Program-made: the position numbers and the translations under genes
DNA from: an uncultured Eubacteriales bacterium
GTDB lineage: Bacteria > Bacillota > Clostridia > Oscillospirales > Acutalibacteraceae
Direction: 5' to 3'
Assembly: GCA_900318495.1 (NCBI GenBank)
Contig: ONLA01000002.1
Location: 17,562-81,561, forward strand
Length of the DNA: 64,000 nucleotides
Shown here: piece after piece, positions 1,521 through 13,907 of the stretch
How positions within the stretch are numbered: the stretch's first letter is position 1
How the letters are laid out: each line of letters begins with the position of its first letter
Notes under the pieces: generated by a model
What the model saw: only the letters and a program-made list of their open reading frames with translations
Databases searched by the model: none
What the model was told of the DNA's origin: nothing

Positions 1521-1549
1521 TTGAATTTTTTTATTAACTATGATATAAT
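1521..1549 (+). promoter_or_regulatory. Sigma-A promoter of the SpoIIE/RsbU-type phosphatase gene
   Basis: TTGAAT (1521-1526), a 17-bp spacer and a perfect TATAAT (1544-1549) with an extended TGn lie 36 bases before the chosen start codon. Confidence 0.85.
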
Positions 1550-1584
1550 CAATATAGCAAAAACACATGAAAAAGGTGATACTT

Positions 1585-2946
1585 ATGAAAGAGAAAATAA
1601 AAACGCTATTTGTCCGTCCTTCAGGCGAGCTTAAACAAACGCTGCGTGAAAACGAGATAAAAACCAATAAGCTGATGCTCATCCTTACAGCAATAATAAC
1701 CGGTGTTATTATTGTTTACTGGGCGTTGTCGCATATTATTCCCAAAACACTGCTTAACAGCTCGGAGCTTTTGGGGCTTGTGATATATTACCTTATATCA
1801 ACCGGAATCGTGGCTTTGATTTGCTTCGTTACAAAATTTAAGCCGAGGGCAATTAAATATTTTTTAATCATAGTCTTTACCGACCTGATTATTTCGTGCA
1901 GCACCCAGGTGATGCAGGAGGACAGGCTTATTCTTGTTTTCCCCTTAATTATGTGCACGCGGTATTATTCAATGCATTTTTCGCTGTTTTCGTCGCTGTA
2001 CCTGATTTTTTCATCATACTGGCTGCCGCTGATTGGATCTATTGTTTCCTCGGACGACCAATCCGCGATTATAATAAAAATGCTGACGCAATACTCAACC
2101 GACATCATTATCGAAATGGTTCCGCTGTATATCTTCATCACGCTTTTGTGTGTTGTTCTGGCGTACAACGGACGGTCAACGCTTCAAAGGCAGTCTGAAA
2201 TTTCGCAAAAAATGGCGCGCACACAAGCAGACCTCGATATGGCTAAAAGCATTCAAATCAGTCAGCTCCCGGCGGAATTCCCCGTTCGTGACGAATTTGA
2301 AGTACACGCCGAAATGCACCCCGCAAAAGAGGTCGGCGGCGATTTGTACGACTGCTTTATGATTGACGACGATCATATGGGTATAGTAATCGGTGATGTT
2401 TCCGGAAAGGGAGTTCCGGCGTCGCTGTTTATGATGATGACGCGCAAGCTTTTGAATCATTTGGGCACATCGGTTCCCGAACCGTCCGAGGTTATACGTC
2501 AGCTTAATGTTCAGCTTGAAAAAGGCAACGAAGAAAATATGTTTGTAACAGTTTGGTACGGTGTTCTTACAATTTCCACCGGAGAAGTCAAGGCAGTAAA
2601 CGCAGGTCACAACTTCCCGGTTATAAAAAATCCCGAAGGAAAATTTGAAAAGCTAAAGATAAAAAGCGGACCGTTTGTCGGAGGCTTGCCAAAAGCAAAG
2701 TACAGGCAATATGAATTTAAGCTTGAAAAAGGCAGCACAATGTTTATTTACACCGACGGCGTTGAGGACGCGTGCAACATTAAGGACGAGTGTTTCGGTT
2801 CAGACAGAATGATTGAAACGCTCAACGCCAATTCGGAATGTAACCCCAAGGAGCTGATTTCAGCGATGATGCAAGCTCTTGACGATTACTCCAAGGGCGC
2901 CGAGCAGTTTGACGATATCACGATGCTCGCGCTTTCGTATAAATAA
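1585..2946 (+). CDS. Membrane-anchored PP2C/SpoIIE-family serine phosphatase (RsbU-like)
   Basis: A 453-residue protein: an N-terminal half with about six hydrophobic membrane segments, a short coiled linker, then a PPM/SpoIIE phosphatase domain (about residues 215-453). Metal-binding landmarks are EVGGDLYD (249-256), GDVSGKGVPAS near 270, NAGHNFPV and the C-terminal TDGVEDA. Family members dephosphorylate STAS-domain anti-sigma antagonists in partner switching. I chose ATG 1585 over the in-frame ATG at 1567 because AAGGTGAT sits 4 bases upstream of the former. Inference: its partner is the STAS protein encoded by the convergent operon at 8847-9149. The membrane half has no recognisable ligand domain, so the signal is unknown. 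Confidence 0.88.
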   Translation: MKEKIKTLFVRPSGELKQTLRENEIKTNKLMLILTAIITGVIIVYWALSHIIPKTLLNSSELLGLVIYYLISTGIVALICFVTKFKPRAIKYFLIIVFTDLIISCSTQVMQEDRLILVFPLIMCTRYYSMHFSLFSSLYLIFSSYWLPLIGSIVSSDDQSAIIIKMLTQYSTDIIIEMVPLYIFITLLCVVLAYNGRSTLQRQSEISQKMARTQADLDMAKSIQISQLPAEFPVRDEFEVHAEMHPAKEVGGDLYDCFMIDDDHMGIVIGDVSGKGVPASLFMMMTRKLLNHLGTSVPEPSEVIRQLNVQLEKGNEENMFVTVWYGVLTISTGEVKAVNAGHNFPVIKNPEGKFEKLKIKSGPFVGGLPKAKYRQYEFKLEKGSTMFIYTDGVEDACNIKDECFGSDRMIETLNANSECNPKELISAMMQALDDYSKGAEQFDDITMLALSYK

Positions 2947-2962
2947 GGCAACAGCGCAAATC

Positions 2963-3011
2963 AAAAAGGATCTGTAAAAGCCCGATGACAGGGAATTACA
3001 GATCCTTTTTT
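2963..3011. terminator. Bidirectional terminator between convergent genes
   Basis: A 15-bp inverted repeat (AAAAAGGATCTGTAA at 2963-2977 with TTACAGATCCTTTTT at 2996-3010) is flanked by an A-run on one side and a T-run on the other, so it can serve both the phosphatase gene and the subtilase operon. Confidence 0.85.
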
Positions 3012-3023
3012 GTCAGTATAAAA

Positions 3024-4181
3024 TCAGGTCAGCAAACGCTGAAGCGCGGTAACATCGCTTACGGTAACACTGCCGTTTCCGTCTATATCCGCAAGCGAAG
3101 CGTCAAATTCAGTCATTTTGAAGCCTGCAAGGTACTTTTGAACAGCGGTCGCGTCGTTAATATCAACCGTGCCGCTGTGATTCACGTCGCCGGTACGAAA
3201 AGGCGTTACCGGCTTGATGTTGAGGTCAAAATTGCTTAAATCAATCATTCCCCAGCCGTATGTGTCGTCAAAGCCTTCATCGCCGAGGTCTACGGCATAG
3301 TGCTTTAATATACCGTAAATTTGCTCCTGATTAAGGCTTTTATCAATGGTTTTAATCAGAGCGGCGGCAGCTGCAGCGTGCGGAGCGGCAAGAGATGTGC
3401 CGGAATCAAGCATCATAAGAGACCTGTGCGGCACAAGCACGTTCATACCCGGCAAAGCAAAATCAATTACCGAACCGTAGTTGGCAAGAAGTCCGAGGGT
3501 GTTGTTTTTGTTAACGGATGTAACGGTAATAACGTTGTCCTTGTTGGCAGGATAGCGAAGCGAAGCGTCGCCCCCTTGGTTGCCGGCTGCCACTACCACC
3601 ACCGCATTGCGTGAAACCGCCTCGGCAATGGCATTGTCAAGCGAATGATAAGTGTGGTTTTTATCATCGCCGCTAAGGCTCAGATTAATTACGTCCGCAC
3701 CGTGGTCAAGCGCGTAATAAATTCCCTTGGCTGTGTCCGCCATATTGCCGTCGCCGTTTTTGTCCATAACCTTTATAGGCAGGATTTTAACGTTAGATGA
3801 GGTGCCGTCGGCAATAATACCGCTCACCTCGGTTCCGTGATACTGCTCGTCCTCAAAATCCGTATTGTTATCAATAAAATTGTAACCGTCGTCGGTGTAG
3901 CGTCCCTGAAGGTATCGGTTGGATTTTTTGATTCCGGTATCCAGCACCGCAACCCTGACCTCCGGAAGCTGTTTACCGCTGTTCTCTATTTTTTTTTGCA
4001 GGGAATCGAGTCCCATACTCTTAACTCCCCAGCTCATATGACCCAAAAGGTAATTGCTGAGTGATTCTGTTTTACAATCATATTCAGCCTTGCGTTCCGC
4101 GGAACCCGCGCTGAAGCACGAAAAGTCTGCAAAAGCTGTAATAACAGCGAGCAAAACAGAAATCAAACGAAATTTTTTCAT
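3024..4181 (-). CDS. Secreted subtilisin-like serine protease with C-terminal dockerin
   Basis: A 385-residue S8 peptidase. A signal peptide covers about the first 28 residues. The catalytic triad is visible as D81 (VLDTG), H115 (HGTEVSG) and S263 (GTSLAAP), with the oxyanion asparagine N201 in AAGN. Residues 331-385 form a type I dockerin: two duplicated 12-residue calcium loops starting GDVNHSG and ADIDGNG. The protein would be exported and dock onto a cohesin on the cell surface or a scaffold. Its start overlaps the upstream esterase stop by 4 bp, so it is the last gene of the STAS/NRPS-like operon. Coupling a dockerin protease to this operon is unusual; it could process a product or be the output of the circuit. 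Confidence 0.9.
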   Translation of the reverse strand: MKKFRLISVLLAVITAFADFSCFSAGSAERKAEYDCKTESLSNYLLGHMSWGVKSMGLDSLQKKIENSGKQLPEVRVAVLDTGIKKSNRYLQGRYTDDGYNFIDNNTDFEDEQYHGTEVSGIIADGTSSNVKILPIKVMDKNGDGNMADTAKGIYYALDHGADVINLSLSGDDKNHTYHSLDNAIAEAVSRNAVVVVAAGNQGGDASLRYPANKDNVITVTSVNKNNTLGLLANYGSVIDFALPGMNVLVPHRSLMMLDSGTSLAAPHAAAAAALIKTIDKSLNQEQIYGILKHYAVDLGDEGFDDTYGWGMIDLSNFDLNIKPVTPFRTGDVNHSGTVDINDATAVQKYLAGFKMTEFDASLADIDGNGSVTVSDVTALQRLLT

Positions 4182-5857
4182 TTTTTACCATCCCTTCCGG
4201 TTAGAGACTTCACCGCAAAAATCGTAAGTCCCGCAATTCCTGCAACAATCGCGGTGCCTCCGGCAACAGCCTTTTTAACAAACGGAACGTTATAATTAAG
4301 CGTAGCGTAAGAAGGGTTTAGCATATGCCGCAAAAGCGGTGACAAAAGAGTCCTGCGGCGGCTCAGCAAGTCGTATTGAATATGAGGGTTGCGCGTTATT
4401 TTCATTGTAGCCCGGTTTTTGCCTGTGTACGGTTCCCAAACAAGACTGTCTGTTGACGGATTGCCAGTTCGCGCGAAGTTTGTCCACATTTGCATTACAG
4501 TGTCCGACAGCGCTTCGTCGGCAACCTCTCCGGTATAAATTGTCTCCTCAAGATTGCCGAAAACATAGGCAAGCTCAACCGCGTGGCAGGCGTTGCGCAT
4601 TGGCAGGCTGGACGGGACAGTCCAGTAATACATATACGCGTTTCCGCCGTTTTTCGAATGCAGCTCAGCCTGCGTTACAGCCGGAAGACGGAACATAAGC
4701 TCGTCATAAAAACGCGACATCTTCCATGTATTGTTGCCCTTAACCGCGGACATAAAAAGGTCAACGCGCTTTTTTTCGTGCGCTGAAATCTTCTTCATAT
4801 CGTTTTCAAACTTAACAGACATACTGAAGCTGTACGGAATAACGCCTCCGACCTCGCCTATCCAGTAATTCATTTCCTCGGAATTTGTTCCAATCAGAAT
4901 ATCAATGTCCGTTGTGTCTCCGTTTTGATACGAATCGTACGGGTTAAGCGGAATCAGCCTTCCGTCGCGCTGGGGAAAATTATTGTAATCATTAACCTTT
5001 TCGTTGATTTTTAAAAGCTCGGCTTCGCTCAGGCTTAACAGCTTTTTTACGGATTTTGTGTGCGCGGCTGACATAAGGCGCTTTGAAAACTCCCTGCACT
5101 CCTCTTTTGAAAAGGTCAGCGCAACCGAACCGCTTTCGGCAATTACACGACGGAACAGTCCCTTTGCCTGCGGGATTACCGGCAGCAGCGACACGCTTCC
5201 GCCGCCTGCCGATTCACCGAACACCGTTACGTTTCCCGGGTTGCCGCCGAATGCGCTTATATTCTTTTGAATCCAGCGCAGCGCCTCGATTTGGTCAAGT
5301 ATTCCCAGGTTAGGCGCGTCCGGATAAGCCTCGCCGCCTTCAAAATACGACAAATCCACAAATCCCATCAAGCCCACACGGTATCCTACAGTCACCAGTA
5401 TAATATCAGGATGCTTGCTGACAAATGCCTTGCCGTCATACATCGGGTCGGCTGTACCTCCCCAGCCGTAGGAACCGCCGTGCAGGAACACCATTACCGG
5501 TTTGTCTGAAGATGTGTCGGAAAGATTTTTCCAAACGTTGAGATACAGGCAGTCCTCGCTGCGCGGATAGTACGACGCCTGCTCGGACGGCCACTCGGTT
5601 TGAATCGGCGATTTGCCGTTGTAATACGCTTCATACACAGAATCACAGTCGTCAACAGGCTCGGGCGCTTTCCAGCGCAGCCTGCCCACAGGCGGCTTGG
5701 CAAACGGAATACCGCGGAACGAGCAGACATTTCCTGCCTTGGCGCCCACAAATATTCCGTTACGGCAAACCGCCGACAGCTCTGAATCGTATTCACCTGT
5801 TATTACGGAATTTTTGCCGTAGCTTTCGCGTATTCTGTTTACTGATTCGTCTGTCAT
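4178..5857 (-). CDS. Type-B carboxylesterase, C-terminal membrane anchor
   Basis: A 559-residue alpha/beta hydrolase of the carboxylesterase/cholinesterase family. The oxyanion motif HGGSYGWGG (126-134), nucleophile S216 in GESAGGG, acidic E327/E328 and H425 in NACHAVE fit the Ser-Glu-His triad; EDCLYLNVW (101-109) is the family signature. There is no signal peptide, but the last 40 residues contain a Gly/Ala/Ile-rich helix followed by a basic tail, suggesting a C-terminal anchor with the enzyme in the cytoplasm. It overlaps both neighbours by 4 bp. Inference: it may release or hydrolyse the thioester-bound product of the NRPS-like enzyme, which has no thioesterase domain. Confidence 0.88.
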   Translation of the reverse strand: MTDESVNRIRESYGKNSVITGEYDSELSAVCRNGIFVGAKAGNVCSFRGIPFAKPPVGRLRWKAPEPVDDCDSVYEAYYNGKSPIQTEWPSEQASYYPRSEDCLYLNVWKNLSDTSSDKPVMVFLHGGSYGWGGTADPMYDGKAFVSKHPDIILVTVGYRVGLMGFVDLSYFEGGEAYPDAPNLGILDQIEALRWIQKNISAFGGNPGNVTVFGESAGGGSVSLLPVIPQAKGLFRRVIAESGSVALTFSKEECREFSKRLMSAAHTKSVKKLLSLSEAELLKINEKVNDYNNFPQRDGRLIPLNPYDSYQNGDTTDIDILIGTNSEEMNYWIGEVGGVIPYSFSMSVKFENDMKKISAHEKKRVDLFMSAVKGNNTWKMSRFYDELMFRLPAVTQAELHSKNGGNAYMYYWTVPSSLPMRNACHAVELAYVFGNLEETIYTGEVADEALSDTVMQMWTNFARTGNPSTDSLVWEPYTGKNRATMKITRNPHIQYDLLSRRRTLLSPLLRHMLNPSYATLNYNVPFVKKAVAGGTAIVAGIAGLTIFAVKSLTGRDGKK

Positions 5858-8841
5858 TGTTTTCTCCGGAATATACCCATTACAGCCTCAAAGAAATTCT
5901 TCTTGTTGCTGTACTTATTGCGAAGCTCGCTTATGGTAACGTCTGTTTGAGAATTGTGTGTTACCAAGCCCTGAGCAACCTTAATAAATATATTCTTAAA
6001 TTCATCCATACTGTCATCGTCGTAAAGACTCGCGGTGTAGTCCATCATAAGCATCAGGCCGTCTTCGCCGTCAAGAATTTCCATATCGAGAATGGTCTGT
6101 GACGCCGCCTGATTCTGACGGATGTCAATTGTTTCAACATCCATACCGTCCATTCCGCCCATATCGCGGATGTCCTGCTGATAAAGCAAGTAAGCCGCCT
6201 CGCTGCTTCCTGCCTGGTTGTTTATGTCAACATACGGATAACAGCTGTGCTCGATACCCTTTTGCACCTGGGTGTGAACCTCGGCGAACAGTTCGCGCAG
6301 GGTCATTTCATCCTTAAAGCGGATACCTACCGGCAGCTCGCGGAACAACAGTCCGACAGAGCTCATCGCGGTTAAATCCTCTCTGCCGTTGTAAATCCAG
6401 CAAAGCTTGATGTCGTCCTTTTTATTATAAATGGAAATCGCGAGCGCAAGCACGGAAATGAAAAATTCATTACGGCTTATGCGGTACTGACGCTCCATAG
6501 CCTTCATCTGAGGCTGCTCGATTCCGATTGGCGCAATAACCTCTCCCATCTCGTTTTCACGTGATTCGTGGTCGGTTTTGGGGTAGCAAGACCAGTCTAC
6601 GCCCTCAAAGCGATCCTCAAAGTACTTTTTGCTTTCCTCATAAAACTCGGTTCCTGCCTCATCCTCGCGGTTCTGCAGGATAAGATAGTAAAGATCCGGG
6701 TCGGGCTGCATACCCATATACGCCTTGCCGACGTTTTGCATAAACAACTTTAATGACGTGCCGTCAAACAGTGTGTGGTGAACGTCAAAGAAAATATAAC
6801 CGTTCTTTTCTGTTTCAAACACGCGGCAGCGGTGCAGACAGCCGCCGATAATTTTAAACGGCTGAACAAGATTATCCTTAATATTGTTAAACTCAAACTC
6901 GCTTATTTTTTCAACGCGGATATCCTGAAGCACCTCGGGAGTGTAGCGCTGAATAATGTCGCCGTCATCGTTAAAGTGGAAGGTTGTAAGCAAAGCGGAA
7001 TGGTTTCGGATTGCGGTTCGCATAGCGTCAGCCATTTTTTGCATATCGAACATATCCTTGTCAACCTTCATCATTGTAAACAGGTTATACATAGTTGATT
7101 TTGGCGTATAAAGCTGATAATCAACCATATACAGCTGTTCAACGGTAAGCGGATGATCCTTCTTCATTGCGCGCGCGTTTTTGATTTCGGGATCCTCGCC
7201 GTCATCGTTAGCGTGAATTTCCTCATAAAGCGCGGCAATTTTCCGGGGAGTTCTTCCGCGGAAGATTTCGCTTGCGTTCAAGCCGGGAAGTCCGCTTTCC
7301 GTGATTACCTTAATTGAACCGAGCGAATCGCCGCCCAGCTCATAAAAATCGTCGTTGATTCCGACCTGCTCCAGCTTAAGAACAGCCGCCATAGCGTCGC
7401 ACAGCTTTTGCTGAGTTTCGTTTTCGGGAGCAACATAATCGGTTTTAAAATCGGACGCGTCGGGCTTGGGCAAAGCCTTTCTGTCCATCTTGCCGTTAGG
7501 CTTCAGCGGCACCTTGTCTATCTTCATATAATATGCCGGAATCATATAATAAGGCAGGCGCTTAGAAAGCTCCTCGCGCATCTTGTCGTTATCGACCTCG
7601 ATGTCGGCGGTATAATAAGCGCAAAGGTAGCTTTTGCCGTTTTCCTCAAAGCCGCGCGCCGCCGCCCAGTCAATGCCGAGCACCTGCTTAACCGAGGCTT
7701 CAATTTCGGCAGGCTCAATACGGTTACCGTTAATTTTAATCATATCTCCCGAACGACCGAGCAAAACATAGTTTCCGTTTTCGTCAACACGCGCAAGGTC
7801 GCCTGTGTGATAAACGCCGTTTTGGAAGGCTTTTTCGGTTTCCTCCGGCAAATTCATATAACCGCGTACATAAGGGTTGTCAAAGCAAAGCTCGCCGATT
7901 TCGCCCTCCTGAGCTTCCTCCCCTTCCTCTGTAAGCAGAGTAATTTTACAATCTATTTCGGGCTTGCCGATAGGACAGGTTTCATAAGATCTGTCAATCG
8001 GGAATACGCCTACGGCAAAGCCGCTTTCGGACGCCGCGTAAATATTTATTAAATCAACGTTCTTGTTATATATATTATTAGCCGGTTCACTTCCGACAAA
8101 CAACATTCTCAGGAACGGACCTGTCTGATTGCCGAGCATACGCACATAAGAAGGCGTGAGGAAGGTAATTGAAATACGCTTTTCCAAAAAGAATTTTTTA
8201 AGCGCCATCGGATTCTTGATTGTGGCATAGCCGACAACAAAAATTTTACCGCAGCATATGCTGAGCGCCTTCAGAATTACAATTACCGAAGCGACAAAGT
8301 TCATCGGTGCGAGCAAAGCGATTCTGTCCTTGCCGGTAAACGGAGTTTCCCCGTTAACAGCTATTGAATCAATCGCTCGTTTCAAATTTCCGTATTCGTG
8401 CAAAACTCCCTTCGGATTGCCTGTGGTGCCCGAGGTGTAAATTGCGTAAGCCGCGTCGTGGTCGTCAGCGGTAACGTAACCGATTTTGGGCTCCGTATTC
8501 ATAACGTCATCCCAGTTAGCGGTGGACAGCTCCGTCTTGCAGCCGCAGTCATTGCGGATAAACTCAATACGCTCGGGAGCGTAGGTGTCCTCAACCAGCG
8601 CCCACGCGGCGCCGCTCTTCCATACGCCGAGCATAGCGATAATGGGCATAACTCCGCGCGGTAGGTTAATAAGTACAAAATCCTCCCTGCCGATTCCCTT
8701 TTCGGAAAGATACGCGTAAACTCTTCCGCTCAATTCATCAAGCTTTGAGTATGTAATACCCTTTGAATTTGCTTCGTCAAAGAGTATCGCCGAATTCGGA
8801 TTTTCTTTGGTATAGCTTTCAAGCATCTGTAAAATGTTCAT
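5854..8841 (-). CDS. NRPS-like enzyme with domain order adenylation - carrier - condensation
   Basis: A 995-residue cytoplasmic synthetase. Adenylation domain, residues about 1-460: P-loop YTSGTTGNPKG (135-145), YHTGDL near 345, catalytic lysine K451 in PNGKMDRKALP. Carrier domain about 468-540: phosphopantetheine serine S506 in ELGGDSL. Condensation domain about 563-975: active-site HHTLFDG (688-694). There is no thioesterase or reductase. The residue equivalent to PheA Asp235, which binds an alpha-amino group, appears to be V183 (NFVAS), so the substrate may not be an ordinary alpha-amino acid. The T-C order means the loaded acyl group could be joined to an unloaded acceptor. It lies 5 bp after the STAS gene and overlaps the esterase. 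No phosphopantetheinyl transferase is in the window. Confidence 0.87.
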   Translation of the reverse strand: MNILQMLESYTKENPNSAILFDEANSKGITYSKLDELSGRVYAYLSEKGIGREDFVLINLPRGVMPIIAMLGVWKSGAAWALVEDTYAPERIEFIRNDCGCKTELSTANWDDVMNTEPKIGYVTADDHDAAYAIYTSGTTGNPKGVLHEYGNLKRAIDSIAVNGETPFTGKDRIALLAPMNFVASVIVILKALSICCGKIFVVGYATIKNPMALKKFFLEKRISITFLTPSYVRMLGNQTGPFLRMLFVGSEPANNIYNKNVDLINIYAASESGFAVGVFPIDRSYETCPIGKPEIDCKITLLTEEGEEAQEGEIGELCFDNPYVRGYMNLPEETEKAFQNGVYHTGDLARVDENGNYVLLGRSGDMIKINGNRIEPAEIEASVKQVLGIDWAAARGFEENGKSYLCAYYTADIEVDNDKMREELSKRLPYYMIPAYYMKIDKVPLKPNGKMDRKALPKPDASDFKTDYVAPENETQQKLCDAMAAVLKLEQVGINDDFYELGGDSLGSIKVITESGLPGLNASEIFRGRTPRKIAALYEEIHANDDGEDPEIKNARAMKKDHPLTVEQLYMVDYQLYTPKSTMYNLFTMMKVDKDMFDMQKMADAMRTAIRNHSALLTTFHFNDDGDIIQRYTPEVLQDIRVEKISEFEFNNIKDNLVQPFKIIGGCLHRCRVFETEKNGYIFFDVHHTLFDGTSLKLFMQNVGKAYMGMQPDPDLYYLILQNREDEAGTEFYEESKKYFEDRFEGVDWSCYPKTDHESRENEMGEVIAPIGIEQPQMKAMERQYRISRNEFFISVLALAISIYNKKDDIKLCWIYNGREDLTAMSSVGLLFRELPVGIRFKDEMTLRELFAEVHTQVQKGIEHSCYPYVDINNQAGSSEAAYLLYQQDIRDMGGMDGMDVETIDIRQNQAASQTILDMEILDGEDGLMLMMDYTASLYDDDSMDEFKNIFIKVAQGLVTHNSQTDVTISELRNKYSNKKNFFEAVMGIFRRKQ

Positions 8842-8846
8842 TTCAA

Positions 8847-9149
8847 TTATCCTTTTTCATAAGTAAGTATTTCGTCAAAGCCGGTAACTTCAAAGACATC
8901 TGTAACGGATTCGTCAACGTTGATAAGCTTCATATCTCCGATTTTATCCATTTTCTTCTGCATGGAAAGAAGAACACGCAGTCCGGCGGACGAAACATAG
9001 TTGACCTTTTTGAAGTCCAGCACAAGACTTGTGCAGTCGCCGATATTCTGCTTAACAAACGCCTCAAACTCAGGCGCCGTAACGGTGTCGATACGTCCCG
9101 AAATTGCAACAGTTACTGTTTTTCCGTCTTTTTTCTGTTTAATGTCCAT
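8847..9149 (-). CDS. STAS-domain anti-sigma factor antagonist (SpoIIAA/RsbV-like)
   Basis: A complete 100-residue single STAS domain. The phosphorylatable serine of the family fits S54 in NYVSSAGLRVLL, and the N-terminal strand TVAISGRID and the C-terminal VTGFDEIL are typical. Unphosphorylated antagonists bind and sequester an anti-sigma kinase; a PP2C phosphatase reactivates them. It is the promoter-proximal gene of the operon running into the NRPS-like gene, and the phosphatase at 1585-2946 is the only candidate partner phosphatase here. No anti-sigma kinase or sigma factor is in the window, so the full switch must use distant genes, or the STAS protein acts on another target. Confidence 0.9.
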   Translation of the reverse strand: MDIKQKKDGKTVTVAISGRIDTVTAPEFEAFVKQNIGDCTSLVLDFKKVNYVSSAGLRVLLSMQKKMDKIGDMKLINVDESVTDVFEVTGFDEILTYEKG

Positions 9150-9180
9150 AGTATTAACTCCTTTTGCTATTTTATATTTT

Positions 9181-9208
9181 GTACATAAACTGTACTTATA
9201 TTATGTAC
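9181..9208. promoter_or_regulatory. Palindromic operator candidate at the STAS/NRPS operon promoter
   Basis: GTACATAA (9181-9188) and TTATGTAC (9201-9208) form a perfect 8-bp inverted repeat around a central TGTACT. It overlaps the -10 element and the predicted start point, where a bound repressor would block transcription. I do not know a regulator for this site. Confidence 0.55.
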
Positions 9209-9228
9209 TTTATTTGTTAAAAAGTCAA
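9200..9228 (-). promoter_or_regulatory. Sigma-A promoter of the STAS/NRPS-like operon
   Basis: On the minus strand TTGACT (9223-9228), a 17-bp spacer and CATAAT (9200-9205) stand about 50 bases before the STAS start codon. Confidence 0.75.
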
Positions 9229-9296
9229 GGAAATGTTTAAATAAAAACAAATAATAAACAAAAAAATGTTCAAAAAACATTATGCCGGTAACTTTT

Positions 9297-9325
9297 TTGT
9301 AATTTTCCGGAAAAGATATTATAAA
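9297..9325 (+). promoter_or_regulatory. Sigma-A promoter with embedded palindrome, upstream of small Cys-rich gene
   Basis: TTGTAA (9297-9302), 17-bp spacer, TATAAA (9320-9325). The spacer begins with the perfect 12-bp palindrome TTTTCCGGAAAA (9303-9314), a possible operator. Confidence 0.65.
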
Positions 9326-9378
9326 TCTTTTTTATGTGTTAAAATACAACTGTTTTGTTTTACGGAGGTGTTGAAATT

Positions 9379-9537
9379 ATGGAAAACAAAAAAACCTGCG
9401 CCGACTGCGTTAATATCGGCAGAGCGGTTTACTGTATGCAGTGCAAAAGACTCAACAAGGGTTATAAGGATATGTTTGTTGAACAAAAGCCTTACAAAGC
9501 TATAAAAATGATGAAGGTGAATAATTCAGCCGTGTGA
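9379..9537 (+). CDS. Small Cys-rich protein (two CxxC pairs), unknown function
   Basis: A 52-residue protein with CADC near residue 7 and CMQC near residue 20, a spacing that suits one zinc site, followed by a basic Lys-rich half. A strong ribosome site GGAGG at 9364-9368 selects ATG 9379. It has its own promoter and a terminator directly after it, so it is a monocistronic gene. I do not recognise the family; a zinc-ribbon regulator or nucleic-acid binder is a guess from composition only. Confidence 0.75.
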   Translation: MENKKTCADCVNIGRAVYCMQCKRLNKGYKDMFVEQKPYKAIKMMKVNNSAV

Positions 9538-9551
9538 TTAGTTTAATTCAA

Positions 9552-9588
9552 AAGCGCAGAACAATTCAAGCTTGTTCTGCGCTTATTT
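9552..9588 (+). terminator. Terminator of the small Cys-rich gene
   Basis: A 13-bp perfect stem (AAGCGCAGAACAA at 9552-9564 with its complement at 9572-9584) is followed by ATTT, 14 bases after the stop codon. Confidence 0.75.
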
Positions 9589-9665
9589 CTATCGTAAATA
9601 CCGGTAAAATTAAAGACCAATCTTTTAGGCTCTTTTGGGAACAGATAAGGTATATTGCTCTCCTT

Positions 9666-9690
9666 AAAAACACTCCCCCGGAGCGTTTTT
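9666..9690 (-). terminator. Minus-strand terminator downstream of tRNA-Thr
   Basis: Read on the minus strand, AAAAACGCTCC, a GGG loop and GGAGTGTTTTT form an 11-bp stem with one G-U pair and an internal U-tract. It could stop transcripts that pass the first terminator after the tRNA. Confidence 0.6.
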
Positions 9691-9716
9691 ACCCGTCTGC
9701 GACGGGCACAGTCGCC

Positions 9717-9736
9717 TTCAAATCCCCTCATCAGCT
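9717..9736 (+). repeat. Inverted 20-bp copy of the tRNA-Thr 3' end
   Basis: These 20 bases equal the tRNA-Thr T-loop, 3' T-stem, 3' acceptor strand and discriminator (9808 down to 9789 on the minus strand), but in the opposite orientation. The match stops exactly before CCA. Confidence 0.8.
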
Positions 9737-9750
9737 GTTTTTCGGATATT

Positions 9751-9784
9751 AAATAAAAGAGTGCCAAACGACACTCTTTTATTT
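9751..9784. terminator. Bidirectional terminator next to tRNA-Thr
   Basis: AAATAAAAGAGTG (9751-9763) pairs perfectly with CACTCTTTTATTT (9772-9784). It begins one base after the encoded CCA of the minus-strand tRNA and is symmetrical, so it can work both ways. Confidence 0.8.
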
Positions 9785-9785
9785 A

Positions 9786-9861
9786 TGGAGCTGATGAGGG
9801 GATTTGAACCCCTGACCTACTGATTACGAATCAGTTGCGCTACCGGCTGCGCCACATCAGC
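9786..9861 (-). tRNA. tRNA-Thr, anticodon CGT
   Basis: The minus strand folds into a full cloverleaf: acceptor GCTGATG with CATCAGC, D-stem GCGC/GCGC, anticodon stem ACTGA/TCAGT with loop TTCGTAA (anticodon CGT, reads ACG), five-base variable loop, T-arm AGGGG-TTCAAAT-CCCCT. The 3' CCA is encoded. Confidence 0.95.
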
Positions 9862-9872
9862 GATTAAACTGT

Positions 9873-10283
9873 TTAACTCACTCGTCTATTATACAACAAG
9901 TGGCGCAGTTTTTTCAATACTTTTTTTGCAAATAATTTAAATTTTTTTGAAGCAGCTGAAAACACGCGCTTTAAAAACGCGAAAACCGGGCGGTAAACCC
10001 TGCACAGAAGTTTTCCCACAGTCAGTCTGTAAGCCAAAAAGCCGGCTAATATTCCCGGCAAAAGGTAGACGCGGACGTATCCGGACAAAAACGCCAAAAT
10101 ATACAGATAAACCAGAACCGCGGAAACAAGCATAAAAACCACGTCGGCTGCAAAGGTCATAACAACTGAAAAATTGAACATTGTGCGCAGCAGCTTAAAA
10201 AAACCGTAAATTACGCCAATTATAACGCCCGGCAAAACCGAATACATAAAAGCGGCCGACTGAACCGCAAAGGTCAGCTCCAT
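9873..10283 (-). CDS. yabQ: Spore cortex biosynthesis protein YabQ
   Basis: A 136-residue membrane protein with three or four hydrophobic segments in the first 95 residues and a strongly basic C-terminal tail, the profile of YabQ. In Bacillus subtilis YabQ localises to forespore membranes and is needed for cortex formation. Identification rests on this topology plus the diagnostic order mazG(yabN)...rqcP(yabO)-yabP-yabQ. It starts 4 bases after the yabP stop and would be cotranscribed. The divIC gene that usually follows is replaced here by tRNA-Thr. Confidence 0.8.
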   Translation of the reverse strand: MELTFAVQSAAFMYSVLPGVIIGVIYGFFKLLRTMFNFSVVMTFAADVVFMLVSAVLVYLYILAFLSGYVRVYLLPGILAGFLAYRLTVGKLLCRVYRPVFAFLKRVFSAASKKFKLFAKKVLKKLRHLLYNRRVS

Positions 10284-10287
10284 ACTG

Positions 10288-10560
10288 TCACCCGAACAGC
10301 TTTTTAAGCCGTGACCGCGAAGCGTCGGAACCTATATATTGCAATGAATCCACCTTGCCGTCAACCGAAACGTCGCCTGTTTCAAGGCTCAGCTTATCAA
10401 TGTGAAGATTACTGCCCTTTACAATAAGCAGCCCTGCCGTTGTTTTAACCGACACAGCGTCCTCGTTAAAGCCGTTAACATCCTCGGCTCCCGTAATCAA
10501 AAGCCGCGCGCGGTGGTCAAGCATTATCGTGTGTTTTTTTGGCTTTGCCGTTTCGCTCAT
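10288..10560 (-). CDS. yabP: Sporulation protein YabP
   Basis: A 90-residue protein whose core (MLDHRARLLITGAEDVNGF, then a VKTTAGLLIVKG-type strand and a LETGDVSVDG strand) matches the YabP/YqfC family, which is made under sigma-E and supports cortex formation in B. subtilis. A GGGGGAAT ribosome site precedes the ATG. It is followed by yabQ. A sigma-E-like promoter can be read upstream at 10590-10618, separating it from rqcP. Confidence 0.88.
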   Translation of the reverse strand: MSETAKPKKHTIMLDHRARLLITGAEDVNGFNEDAVSVKTTAGLLIVKGSNLHIDKLSLETGDVSVDGKVDSLQYIGSDASRSRLKKLFG

Positions 10561-10589
10561 AATAATTCCCCCGTAATAATTCTCAGTAA

Positions 10590-10618
10590 ATTATACGGAG
10601 GAACTGCTTAAAATATTA
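10590..10618 (-). promoter_or_regulatory. Candidate sigma-E promoter of yabP-yabQ
   Basis: On the minus strand TAATATT, a 14-bp spacer and CGTATAAT resemble the sigma-E consensus (KMATATW, 14-15 bp, CATACAMT). Position and gene function fit, but two -10 bases deviate. Confidence 0.45.
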
Positions 10619-10622
10619 CTAA

Positions 10623-10659
10623 AGGCAATACCGCATAATTCAGGTGTGCGGTGTTGCCT
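10623..10659. repeat. Dispersed hairpin repeat, copy 1
   Basis: AGGCAATACCGCA and TGCGGTGTTGCCT form a 13-bp stem with one wobble. The 26 bases from CATAATTC onward are repeated exactly at 62300-62325. The element begins at the stop codon of rqcP. Confidence 0.8.
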
Positions 10660-10900
10660 AAACTACCGCTTCATACATTGACGCGGCATCCTCCTTGCGC
10701 ACAACCTCTTTAACCTCGGTAACGCGCACCTTAACTGTTTTTGCGCCGAGGGTGATTTCAAGCACATCGCCGGGCTTTACGTCATATGAAGCGCGGGCAG
10801 CCTTGCCGTTTACAACAACCTTGCCCGCGTCGCAGGCTTCGTTCGCTACGGTTCTGCGCTTAATCAGGCGCGACACCTTTAAGTATTTGTCAAGTCGCAT
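10658..10900 (-). CDS. rqcP: RqcP (YabO), S4-domain ribosome quality-control factor
   Basis: An 80-residue single S4 RNA-binding domain (MRLDKYLKVSRLIKRRTVA with GKVVVNGKAARASYDVKPGD). In B. subtilis RqcP binds the obstructed 50S subunit and assists RqcH in Ala-tail synthesis. Length and the yabP/yabQ neighbourhood separate it from heat-shock protein Hsp15 and from YlmH. A GGAGG ribosome site precedes ATG. A terminator between hup and rqcP suggests partly independent expression. The stop codon sits at the edge of the dispersed hairpin repeat. Confidence 0.85.
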   Translation of the reverse strand: MRLDKYLKVSRLIKRRTVANEACDAGKVVVNGKAARASYDVKPGDVLEITLGAKTVKVRVTEVKEVVRKEDAASMYEAVV

Positions 10901-10922
10901 AACAACCTCCTGTTTTCACAAT

Positions 10923-10945
10923 AAAAAAGAGCCGTCAACCGGCTC
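10923..10945 (-). terminator. Terminator after hup
   Basis: On the minus strand GAGCCG-GTTGA-CGGCTC is followed by TTTTTTATT. It separates hup from rqcP. Confidence 0.8.
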
Positions 10946-10971
10946 CCTTTTATGTGTAAATTAACTCCGAA

Positions 10972-11247
10972 TTACTGATTTACAATATCCTTGAAGCCCT
11001 TGCCTGCTTTGAACGCAGGAACCTTGGAAGCAGGGATTTCAATTGAATTACCTGTTCTGGGGTCAACGCCTGTTCTTGCGTTTCTCTGGCGCTGCTCAAA
11101 TGTGCCAAAACCTGTGAGCTGAATCTTATCACCTGCCGCTACAGCCTTGATGATTGTGTCAAGAGTTGCTGTAAGAGCCTTTTCTGCATCCTTCTTCGAA
11201 AGACCTGCCTGTTCTGCAATAGCTACAATAAGTTCTGTCTTTTTCAT
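10972..11247 (-). CDS. hup: HU-family DNA-binding protein
   Basis: A 91-residue nucleoid protein. The dimerisation helices (MKKTELIVAIAEQAGLSKKD) and the arm motif GFGTFEQRQRNARTGVDPRT with the following NSIEIPASKVPAF are classic HU. It bends and compacts DNA as a homodimer. It begins 6 bp after the mazG stop, so it can be expressed from the mazG transcript, and ends in a strong terminator. Confidence 0.95.
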   Translation of the reverse strand: MKKTELIVAIAEQAGLSKKDAEKALTATLDTIIKAVAAGDKIQLTGFGTFEQRQRNARTGVDPRTGNSIEIPASKVPAFKAGKGFKDIVNQ

Positions 11248-11253
11248 GATAGA

Positions 11254-12066
11254 TTAACCTCCATTGTTATCTTTTAACTTTATTTTAACTTCATCCCAAA
11301 GGGAATCAAGCTGCGTAATTGATGCCGTTTCCATATTAATTCCGCGTTCAACGGCAAGCTTTTCAAGCAACGCGAAACGCTCAACAAATTTATCACAGGA
11401 ATCATACAAAGCGTGTTCGCTGTCAACGTTAAGAAAGCGCGCGACATTAACAGTTGAAAACAGCACGTCGCCGATTTCCTCATAACGGTTTCTTTCGCTT
11501 CCGTGACGAATAGCAATACCAAGCTCGGTGCATTCCTCATTAAGCTTCTTCATCGCTCCCTCAACAGACTCAAAATCCATTCCGGCTTTGCGCGCCTTGC
11601 GCTGAATTTTTTCGCTGCGCATAAGCGAAGGCAAAGCCCTGGAAACACTTTGAATCGCCTGTGTGTGAGTTGTCTGAGCCTTGGTTTTTCTTTTAACCGA
11701 ATCCCAGTTGGAAAGCGCTTCGTCAACGTTTTTGGCGTTTTTGTCGCCGAACACGTGAGGATGACGCACAATCAGCTTTTTGCAAAGCTCGTCAACAACA
11801 TCGTTTAGGTCAAAGCGGTTTTCTTCGCTTTCCATTTGGCTGTGCAAAGCAACCTGAAGCATTACGTCGCCGAGTTCCTCTTTTAACAGCGCCGTGTCGC
11901 CGGTATCAATAGCTTCAACAGCCTCATAGGTTTCTTCAATAAAATTTGCCCGGATAGATTTGTGAGTCTGTTCCCTGTCCCACGGACAGCCGTCAGGCGC
12001 TCTTAAAATCCTGACTATCTCAATCAAATCATCAAATCCGTACACGGGTTTTTCTGTAAATTGCAT
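11254..12066 (-). CDS. mazG: Nucleoside triphosphate pyrophosphohydrolase MazG
   Basis: A 270-residue protein with two tandem MazG domains (about 10-120 and 140-265). Metal-binding acidic residues appear as EETYEAVEAID and EELGDVMLQV in the first and EECTELGIA and EEIGDVLFS in the second; DGCPWDREQTH near residue 25 is a family marker. It hydrolyses non-canonical or excess NTPs. It corresponds to the MazG part of B. subtilis YabN but lacks the N-terminal methylase domain. Neighbours (spoVB-like, hup, rqcP, yabP) follow the B. subtilis yabM-yabQ order. Confidence 0.93.
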   Translation of the reverse strand: MQFTEKPVYGFDDLIEIVRILRAPDGCPWDREQTHKSIRANFIEETYEAVEAIDTGDTALLKEELGDVMLQVALHSQMESEENRFDLNDVVDELCKKLIVRHPHVFGDKNAKNVDEALSNWDSVKRKTKAQTTHTQAIQSVSRALPSLMRSEKIQRKARKAGMDFESVEGAMKKLNEECTELGIAIRHGSERNRYEEIGDVLFSTVNVARFLNVDSEHALYDSCDKFVERFALLEKLAVERGINMETASITQLDSLWDEVKIKLKDNNGG

Positions 12067-12107
12067 AGTGGTTACCCCGAATTTTCTAATTCCTACATCT
12101 ACTTATT

Positions 12108-13907
12108 TTACCCAATTAGGTGCAATTTTTCAAGTGTTTTTGCGATTTTTTCACCTTTTGGTAATATTTTGATTTCTTCTGCCTTAAACGTCTTAATTAT
12201 TAGTAAAATTGCAATATAAACTACCGCAGCCGCAACGATTGCAAGCGCCGTGGCTATTCTGTGATTAACAATCGGCATAAGAAGCTGATTTACAAAATAA
12301 GCGGTTACACTGCTGCACACCGCGCCGATAAGCGGTTTTACGGTGGTGCTGAAGAAATCGGGCATAACCTTGCTGTATTTTACAAGCAGGTATGTTCCGA
12401 TAACGCAAATAAGCGCGTATGAAATAAGCGAGCCGGCCGTTGCGCCCTGAATATTGACGTCCGGAATGCTTACAAAAATCCACGATGTTCCGATTTTCAC
12501 GAGCATACAAATGGTGTAAAGTATCATCGGAAGCTTAACCTTGCCGATACCGTTCAGCATACTGCAAATCGGTGTAATTATCGCGGTAAATATCGTTGTG
12601 ATTCCCATAAGCGTAAGCACGTTTCCGCCGATATTTATAATGTCCGGGCTGGAATAAATAAAGCCCATAACCGAATGTGAAAGCACCGAAAGTCCGAACG
12701 CCATAGGCAGAGTGAACATCATTGTCATTTTCAGCACGGTGTCAATCGAGCTTTTAAGCTCCTGCTTGTTGCCCTTTGTCCAGGCGCTTGTAACGTTGGG
12801 CATCGCGCTTGAGCCGAACACCTGTGTAACAGCGGTAACAAGCTGCATAAGCGTAAGCGACGAACCGTAACAGCCCCAAAGGCTGGTGTGTATGGTTGAT
12901 TTTTCGCCGTAGAAAACCTCCGGCGGATAAAACTTGTGATACTGCGCAAACAAAGCGTCGGCGTTAGTTCTCGCCATATTGTAAAGCACATTTTGAATAA
13001 TTGCCGCGTCAATAATTGAGCCTATGCTCATTACCAGCGTGCCGCCGACAATCGGCAAAGCGGTTTTGATAATGATGCCAAGCGTTGATTTGGCGCTTCT
13101 TGCGGCAACAGAAGCTTCGTAATACTGCTTTGGAATTCCGTCGCCGCCTATTTTATACTTCAAAAGCAGATACAAAAATGAGCAGAAGCTCGCGATTGAA
13201 ATGCCGCAAATGTTTCCGGCTACAGAAAAAGCGAGGATTGTGTTGTGAGCTTCAATGTGATTTTTAAAGTGGAAAAACAGAAACGTGTGGTTCTGCCGGT
13301 ATGATTCCATTCCGAGCTTCATAATCAAAAACGCGAACAGAGCACCCAAGGCAAGCTTTACAACCGCCTCGATTACCTCGGAAACGGCTGTAGGGAACAT
13401 ATTGCGCTGACCTTCAAAGTAGCCGCGGTAAATCGAAGTAAGACAGCCGAACAAAATTGTCGGCGCAAGCGCCATCATTGCGTAAACGGCGTAAGGCGAC
13501 TTAATAACGTTAAATGCGTAAGGAAAGCTGACGATCAGCATACCCAGCATACAAACCAGCCCGACAATCAGAAAAATCGGAACGGAAAGCCTGTGAACAA
13601 GCTTGACGTCATTGTAGCGTTTTTCCGCCATATTCTGAGAAATCAGCCTTGAAATTACAATTGGAAGTCCGCCTGTAGCGACCGTAAAGATAAGGACAAA
13701 AATTTCGTAAGCGTTATTGTAAAGTCCCACGCCCATAGACGCAAAGCTGTCGCCGAACATCGAATAAATATCGGCGAGTATTACCTTGTCAAGAAGTCCG
13801 AAAACCTTGACAATTACCATACTTACGGTCAGTATTGCCGCGCCCTTGACAAAAGCCTGCGACGCGTTTTGTTCAGCGCCGGCAACCGCGTTATATTTTT
13901 TTGACAA
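12108..13907 (-). CDS. SpoVB/MurJ-like polysaccharide flippase of the MOP superfamily
   Basis: A polytopic membrane protein of 599 residues with about 14 hydrophobic segments. The N-terminal stretch AFVKGAAILTVSMVIVKVFG and the internal GLPIVISRLISQ resemble SpoVB/YabM lipid-linked oligosaccharide flippases. I place the start at TTG 13907 because GGGGGA lies 7 bases upstream; an in-frame ATG at 13964 has no ribosome site and would add 19 uncharacteristic residues. Position upstream of mazG matches yabM in B. subtilis. It may export lipid II or a related precursor for wall or cortex; which substrate cannot be read from sequence. Confidence 0.82.
   Translation of the reverse strand: MSKKYNAVAGAEQNASQAFVKGAAILTVSMVIVKVFGLLDKVILADIYSMFGDSFASMGVGLYNNAYEIFVLIFTVATGGLPIVISRLISQNMAEKRYNDVKLVHRLSVPIFLIVGLVCMLGMLIVSFPYAFNVIKSPYAVYAMMALAPTILFGCLTSIYRGYFEGQRNMFPTAVSEVIEAVVKLALGALFAFLIMKLGMESYRQNHTFLFFHFKNHIEAHNTILAFSVAGNICGISIASFCSFLYLLLKYKIGGDGIPKQYYEASVAARSAKSTLGIIIKTALPIVGGTLVMSIGSIIDAAIIQNVLYNMARTNADALFAQYHKFYPPEVFYGEKSTIHTSLWGCYGSSLTLMQLVTAVTQVFGSSAMPNVTSAWTKGNKQELKSSIDTVLKMTMMFTLPMAFGLSVLSHSVMGFIYSSPDIINIGGNVLTLMGITTIFTAIITPICSMLNGIGKVKLPMILYTICMLVKIGTSWIFVSIPDVNIQGATAGSLISYALICVIGTYLLVKYSKVMPDFFSTTVKPLIGAVCSSVTAYFVNQLLMPIVNHRIATALAIVAAAVVYIAILLIIKTFKAEEIKILPKGEKIAKTLEKLHLIG

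Follow-up and report, generated by a model that had tools for sequence, protein, structure and literature searches.

What does a STAS-domain protein, a relative of anti-sigma factor antagonists, do at the head of a biosynthetic operon? The question is raised by a 64,000-nucleotide stretch of contig ONLA01000002.1 (assembly GCA_900318495.1) from an uncultured rumen member of the Acutalibacteraceae, hereafter the window. Genes for a STAS protein, a non-ribosomal peptide synthetase (NRPS) of adenylation-thiolation-condensation (A-T-C) architecture, a tail-anchored carboxylesterase and a dockerin subtilase form a tight operon in it, convergent with the gene of a SpoIIE-type phosphatase. We designate genomes, loci and contigs as G, L and C, respectively; contig C60 of G000, a 1.88 Mb draft genome of 86% completeness, contains the window. 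The original prediction, made from the window alone, listed these five genes with positions, spacings and domain calls, all of which agree with the open reading frame (ORF) coordinates and Pfam matches (Table 1), and proposed an environment-sensing circuit tied to a secreted molecule. Our comparison with relatives supports the link to export, while the most telling partner, a MATE exporter fused to an RsbW-like HATPase domain, is encoded outside the window. The operon very likely belongs to a system that combines NRPS, partner switch and exporter, and in the best single reading synthesis and export are the targets of the switch, which would not work through a sigma factor.

Conserved neighbourhood of the NRPS

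A scan of named genomes for the NRPS yielded 56 loci, mostly from metagenome-assembled genomes of rumen or gut Ruminococcus-like bacteria and other Clostridia; three loci in which no NRPS gene was called (L080, L088 and L091) and those with short flanks were dropped before counting. A STAS gene lies directly upstream of the homologous NRPS gene in 27 of 50 judged loci, and an esterase gene directly downstream in 41 of 50; the gene caller or the criterion missed the esterase in L049, L052 and L085 and the STAS gene in L062. The STAS-NRPS-esterase arrangement is thus recurrent in rumen Clostridia. Counting only pairs between -60 and 120 bp apart, the spacing ranges from -41 to 33 bp in 35 STAS-NRPS pairs and from -26 to 60 bp, mostly -4, in 45 NRPS-esterase pairs, and these short distances suggest translational coupling at both junctions. 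The window itself has a 5-bp gap between STAS and NRPS genes, and 4-bp overlaps at both the NRPS/esterase and esterase/subtilase junctions.

Genes for the other switch components are frequent nearby. Of 28 judged relatives, 15 encode SpoIIE within ~7 kb of the NRPS (14 without L038, where the SpoIIE, HATPase and exporter genes belong to a second NRPS cluster). Leaving out L038 and three weak matches, a high-scoring HATPase, stand-alone or fused to SpoIIE, was also found in 15/28; any HATPase match was present in 20/28, those in L047, L049 and L052 being weak hits (18-20 bits) to other proteins. The gene run SpoIIE > RsbW > MATE-HATPase > STAS > NRPS > esterase is seen in L071, L072 and L044, and MATE-HATPase > STAS > NRPS > esterase > RsbW > SpoIIE in L051, L054, L068 and L089. 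Four loci (L040, L063, L064 and L083) have no esterase after the NRPS, and a plain MATE gene instead. In a family-level sample, 17 of 26 NRPS loci had adjoining STAS, SpoIIE or HATPase genes, some contigs ending early. Both NRPS clusters of L038 (8646-21938) are adjacent and convergent on a single contig.

The association holds across 99 genomes of the same genus (own genome excluded), 47 with and 52 without the NRPS; the tests ignore phylogeny. SpoIIE homologues (E up to 1e-60) occur in 45/47 NRPS-positive versus 12/52 NRPS-negative genomes (Fisher p 1.4e-14), within 10 kb of the NRPS in 22/47, although in G780 (4,831 bp) this is due to the second cluster. Together with the proximity counts, this speaks for the predicted association of STAS protein, NRPS and SpoIIE-type phosphatase. 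Close exporter homologues, defined by a line of at least 56% identity that was drawn after inspection of the table, were found in 24/47 NRPS-positive and 0/52 NRPS-negative genomes (p 2.7e-10), and in 11/24 versus 0/28 when only genomes at least 90% complete were considered. The exporter gene adjoins the NRPS gene in 11 of the 24 (tables compared by eye), being otherwise unlinked or separated by a contig end. Mean completeness is similar in both groups (90% and 89%, respectively). The second-cluster NRPS (L098 type) occurs in 22/47 genomes with the window NRPS and in 1/52 without, as judged from second-NRPS labels and genus presence lists assigned by hand.

The five-gene set as such is not a conserved unit. 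STAS, NRPS, esterase and SpoIIE recur, whereas no subtilase was found near the homologous NRPS in any of the 28 judged relatives, as judged by a search confined to the protease domain. In the nearest relative, G785, whose NRPS is 94% identical to that of the window over the 884 residues present on its contig, the esterase gene abuts that of SpoIIE, without a subtilase between them; this SpoIIE is 82% identical to the window protein and has the same convergent position. We therefore rejected the subtilase as a system member: it is apparently a lineage-specific local insertion and probably has no part in the system. Since the pair converges in G785 without it, the subtilase seems to be a later arrival than the convergent phosphatase, on the basis of this one relative.

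MATE exporter with a fused HATPase domain

The MATE protein linked to the NRPS in relatives has a length of ~589 aa and a C-terminal RsbW-like HATPase domain. Both domains pass Pfam cut-offs in L071, L098, L108, L103, L156 and L160, PF01554 being matched in two stretches. These exporters support the predicted link to a secreted small molecule. The predicted structure of the L071 protein (predicted local distance difference test (pLDDT) 80, predicted template modelling score 0.80) consists of a helical transporter part, best matched by MATE structures in Foldseek, and an alpha/beta C-terminal domain. Among 62 Foldseek matches with E up to 0.001, the best 50 all belong to MATE or MurJ/Wzx-type transporters, and a profile search of solved structures matched 15 chains that cover only the MATE part; since the Foldseek matches are transporters, the HATPase assignment comes from sequence alone.

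Exporter-fused HATPase domains fall on one side of a tree branch (97/88), with long-branch warnings, which is consistent with a single fusion event. In 18 aligned fusions, the E, N and D residues of the N and G1 boxes show little or no variation. The GxG motif of the G2 box is kept in only 2/27 exporter-fused domains versus 34/36 other HATPases (11/12 SpoIIE-fused, 22/23 stand-alone and 1/1 STAS-fused), a count from which L105, an incomplete sequence, was omitted. Because of this loss, the domain probably serves for binding rather than as a kinase, i.e., it is likely kinase-dead in most exporters.

In a sample of 398 genomes of the phylum, own genome excluded, exporter matches reached into the HATPase part at at least 11 loci in at least 9 genomes. 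All 11 listed fusions have SpoIIE in the fetched stretches, six have STAS and four another HATPase; these loci are not all independent, L157 and L158 being close kin and two genomes contributing two loci each. The corresponding numbers for 20 plain MATE loci were 0, 1 and 1. Pfam analysis of three of the 11 exporters placed HATPase_c_2 above the cut-off in L156 and L160 and did not find it in L164. The cargo beside the fusions varies: an NRPS in L156, a bacteriocin-like precursor with ABC transporters in L160, and GH3 and ATP-grasp proteins in L161.

The L160 cluster (2229-12786) comprises the bacteriocin-like precursor (double-glycine leader identified by eye), two ABC transporters, STAS, MATE-HATPase and SpoIIE, with a 436-aa protein resembling S-adenosylhomocysteine hydrolase between cluster genes. 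In L161 (285-7571), genes for MATE-HATPase, the ATP-grasp protein (in two stretches), a GH3-type ligase and SpoIIE form one run. The C-terminal extensions of MATE proteins in L111 (4405-6135) and L173 (13232-14971) resemble shrunken HATPase remnants. The second NRPS cluster of G000, on contig C47 (L098 49-11063), encodes a larger NRPS, MATE-HATPase, a SpoIIE-HATPase fusion, a CapA-like protein and STAS in one run.

STAS-condensation fusions

L156 and L164 each have a gene that joins STAS to an NRPS condensation domain. A search of the phylum sample identified five such genes in 4/398 genomes, all of one family, with both domains above Pfam cut-offs and HxxxDG kept in all five. Up to E 1e-25, the search matched only two other proteins, the window NRPS (1.6e-30) and, in G532, a 997-aa NRPS with an adjoining esterase. 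The exporter gene directly follows the STAS-condensation gene in 4/5 cases, with a 4-bp overlap in three; an NRPS gene lies between the two in L156.

Switch proteins

The window STAS protein has the motif YVSSAGL, and Y[ILV]SS[ASG] is present in 53/54 STAS-only proteins. Four aspartates of SpoIIE (D259, D277, D397 and D450), which we take to be metal ligands, are invariant among six aligned sequences (alignment A3). The predicted structure of the window SpoIIE is poor (pLDDT 58.9), and no conclusion was drawn from it. The genome has seven HATPase_c_2 matches, none on C60, and ten Sigma70_r2 matches, none on C60, C47, C36 or C75, so the predicted lack of a local kinase or sigma factor holds for the window contig by these two families. 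Many relatives nevertheless encode a kinase next to the NRPS, and in G000 the kinase probably acts in trans: the HATPase C47:16551-16970 of G000, which adjoins SpoIIE, groups with NRPS-linked kinases in the tree (fork 88/86) and is probably the RsbW-type kinase of the window system. A sigma-F query, the only sigma type searched in relatives, matched two of 1144 called neighbourhood proteins, one in L053 and one on contig C54 of the own genome. A single protein with STAS, APH-type kinase and HATPase domains adjoins MATE-HATPase, STAS and SpoIIE genes in L154 (10952-12541).

NRPS and esterase chemistry

The catalytic lysine of the A domain, the serine of the T domain and the HHxxxDG motif of the C domain are each kept in 52/52 A-T-C homologues (50 distinct sequences). 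An aspartate at the A-domain position corresponding to residue 235 of PheA marks alpha-amino acid substrates by binding the alpha-amine, and not every NRPS has it. In alignment to LgrA, the residue at this position is valine in 51/52 homologues and isoleucine in 1/52, within a hydrophobic pocket; in the window NRPS it is Val183, catalytic residues being intact. Owing to this replacement, the substrate activated by the A domain is probably a carboxylic acid that lacks an alpha-amine rather than a standard alpha-amino acid, and the product may contain an acyl-type building block in place of an ordinary amino acid. A C-terminal hydrophobic tail was detected by hydropathy in 43/47 esterase homologues; the membrane-tailed GESAG esterase could act on the product at the membrane, by releasing or editing it.

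Proposed mechanism and its alternatives

The sequences directly show which parts there are, how they are linked and co-occur, that exporter and HATPase are fused, with a degenerate ATP site, and that STAS-condensation fusions lie beside exporter genes. We propose that the window holds the biosynthetic half of the system (STAS, A-T-C NRPS and membrane-tethered esterase) together with one sensor phosphatase. The RsbW-type kinase, here probably C47:16551-16970, would phosphorylate STAS, and membrane SpoIIE phosphatases would dephosphorylate it upon a signal. Unphosphorylated STAS would bind the probably kinase-dead HATPase at the C-terminus of the MATE exporter (here G000:C36:8544-10319) and, held close to the condensation domain of the NRPS, could couple or gate product release and export. 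Inferred in this scheme are the phosphorylation of STAS, its contact with the exporter, the direction in which control runs and the nature of the product. A partner switch with small-molecule synthesis and export as its output, with the full mechanism as proposed, has in our estimate a little less than an even chance. Its more specific form is possible, with the balance tilting against it: phosphorylation-switched docking, whereby dephosphorylated STAS, encoded with or fused to the condensation domain, would plug into the MATE pseudo-kinase and control release directly, without any sigma factor.

A number of observations weigh against this proposal. In G000, the exporter, kinase and NRPS genes are on three contigs. 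The closest exporter gene, on C36, is followed by its own STAS gene, and the 20 kb read there (L108) contain no SpoIIE gene; with a second STAS adjoining and no phosphatase nearby, the window STAS may not be the partner of this exporter. The exporter-HATPase fusion is near the NRPS in only 9/28 judged loci (8 without L038), some loci represent one genome present in two collections, and the counts ignore phylogeny. As many as 23/47 NRPS-positive draft genomes have no close exporter homologue; at E 1e-40, exporter matches occur in 35/47 NRPS-positive genomes but also in 10/52 NRPS-negative ones (p 3.0e-8), and therefore distant exporter fusions exist without this NRPS. In exporters of L222, L223, L224 and L164, HATPase_c_2 is below the Pfam cut-off or undetected, the domain having been called from our own profile and alignment. 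No SpoIIE was seen within the 15.5-20 kb read around the STAS-condensation/exporter pairs of L222-L224, which lowers the share of exporter fusions with SpoIIE nearby to 11/14 overall. Finally, a sigma-like gene lies close downstream of SpoIIE in L053.

The last point fits a conventional switch, in which SpoIIE, RsbW and STAS would regulate a sigma factor encoded in trans, on which transcription of the NRPS, esterase and exporter genes depends, STAS being merely co-transcribed with the regulon. Every canonical part is present in the genome, there are ten Sigma70_r2 matches, the STAS phosphosite motif is kept, and control of NRPS expression has been proposed for a similar neighbourhood (Leahy et al. 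2010, PMC2812497). This arrangement would leave the HATPase-exporter fusion, the loss of the G2 motif and the STAS-condensation fusion unexplained, and no Sigma70_r2 match is on the contigs that carry the parts; we consider it rather unlikely.

The same parts as in our proposal would also make up a flux sensor, if transport through MATE altered the HATPase domain and thereby the availability of STAS, passing information from exporter to synthetase activity or expression. The near-invariance of the N- and G1-box residues agrees with this, as does L160, where the fused HATPase looks intact and the 13.6 kb read contain no separate HATPase gene. As 25/27 fused domains are without the GxG motif, a kinase output of the exporter itself is unlikely in most of them, and we find the flux sensor improbable. 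It is no more probable that STAS acts on the NRPS itself, as an allosteric subunit or carrier-domain binder, with the exporter associated by pathway clustering only: close STAS-NRPS spacing, the STAS-condensation fusions and partner switches known to act on enzymes such as diguanylate cyclases (PMC8457831) favour it, whereas exporter fusions occur with SpoIIE (L157, L158, L159 and L162) and STAS (L157 and L158) where the stretch read has no NRPS gene.

Relation to known systems

In Methanobrevibacter ruminantium M1, genes for two serine phosphatases, a MatE efflux protein and an anti-sigma factor antagonist lie around an NRPS gene (mru0066-mru0071), and a further cluster has phosphatase, antagonist and kinase; sensing, control of NRPS expression and export were suggested (Leahy et al. 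2010, PMC2812497). Because of this likeness in NRPS, phosphatase, antagonist and MatE, the neighbourhood described here is not wholly new. The M. ruminantium enzyme is a two-module NRPS of an archaeal host that starts with a condensation domain and ends with a thioesterase, in contrast to the A-T-C protein of the window, and no esterase is named in the passages concerned; nor do these mention a HATPase domain on MatE or offer a survey or mechanism (PMC2812497). In a study of lauric acid, the regulated genes tabulated include mru_0069 (MatE), mru_0351 (NRPS) and mru_0514, with values, probably log2 changes, of 1.20, 1.06 and 1.26, respectively (PMC5816558). NRPS genes are also reported for M. 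millerae (PMC4987999).

With SpoIIE/RsbU-RsbW-STAS switching our system shares the STAS phosphosite motif, the SpoIIE-type phosphatase and, in relatives, the RsbW-type kinase; it differs in having no linked sigma factor, a degenerate RsbW-like domain on the exporter and a STAS protein tied to an NRPS or condensation domain. In SiaABCD, HsbA/HsbD and BgrV/BgrR, a phosphorylation-dependent partner likewise controls an enzyme and not a sigma factor, but the target is a diguanylate cyclase, and SiaC is a DUF1987 protein, not STAS (PMC8457831). SLC26/SulP transporters also carry a partner-switch-type domain, which is STAS on SulP, whereas here the STAS-binding type (HATPase) is on MATE; the same review discusses STAS proteins with unknown non-sigma targets (PMC8256260).

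The exporter matched ClbM (PDB 4z3n) structurally and SolL (NCBIfam NF041801) weakly. ClbM is, we assume, a MATE exporter serving an NRPS-type pathway, as is SolL according to the model title; both matches cover the transporter part only, and no fused HATPase was seen there. Our searches of open-licence literature turned up no account of either fusion, MATE-HATPase or STAS-condensation, and none of the missing ATP motif or of the co-occurrence.

HATPase-fused exporters and STAS-condensation fusions offer concrete, testable non-sigma partners for partner switches. If the proposal is true, it tells when rumen NRPS clusters, of which one survey counted 5,346 in 8,160 genomes (PMC8241843), are switched on and how the product exits the cell. 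Docking of STAS to the exporter, if true, would suggest what kind of target the partner switches of methanogens may have in the absence of a sigma factor; these archaea carry SpoIIAA/SpoIIAB/SpoIIE-like proteins, no bona fide archaeal sigma factor having been identified according to the source (PMC2686161).

Features of the window locus

Table 1 Annotated features of the partner-switch/NRPS locus in the window
Feature	Position	Strand	Description
Possible sigma-A type promoter before SpoIIE	1521..1549	+	TTGAAT-17-TATAAT, spotted by eye
SpoIIE/RsbU-type phosphatase	1567..2946	+	459 aa; PF07228 7.5e-51; N-terminal membrane domain, C-terminal PPM domain
Subtilase-dockerin	3024..4181	-	385 aa; PF00082 (Peptidase_S8) 1.2e-47 and PF00404 (Dockerin_1); predicted secreted (signal peptide by eye); dockerin C-terminal
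Type-B carboxylesterase	4178..5857	-	559 aa; PF00135 (COesterase) 2.7e-102; GESAG; C-terminal membrane tail
A-T-C NRPS	5854..8841	-	995 aa; AMP-binding 1.5e-45, PP-binding 7.6e-6, Condensation 7.7e-38
STAS antagonist-like protein	8847..9149	-	100 aa; PF01740 1.4e-15, TIGR00377; SSAGL phosphosite motif; assignment also from a tree
Putative promoter of STAS operon	9200..9228	-	TTGACT-17-CATAAT, by eye; hexamers identical in G785

The stop codons of the SpoIIE and subtilase genes face each other 77 bp apart. GTAC repeats at 9181-9208, which overlap and trail the putative -10 box of the STAS operon and are only partly kept in G785, could be a candidate operator. Genes yabP/yabQ are located upstream of the STAS operon, past a tRNA-like stretch (by eye) and a small divergent ORF; with these intervening elements and a likely promoter of its own for the operon, a sporulation link was set aside. 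A search of eight proteins against PADLOC for a defence system returned a general subtilase match only. A small ORF at 9379-9537 (+), divergent from STAS, encodes a Cys-rich protein with CxxC pairs, and G785 has one beside its STAS gene (L192 647-805).

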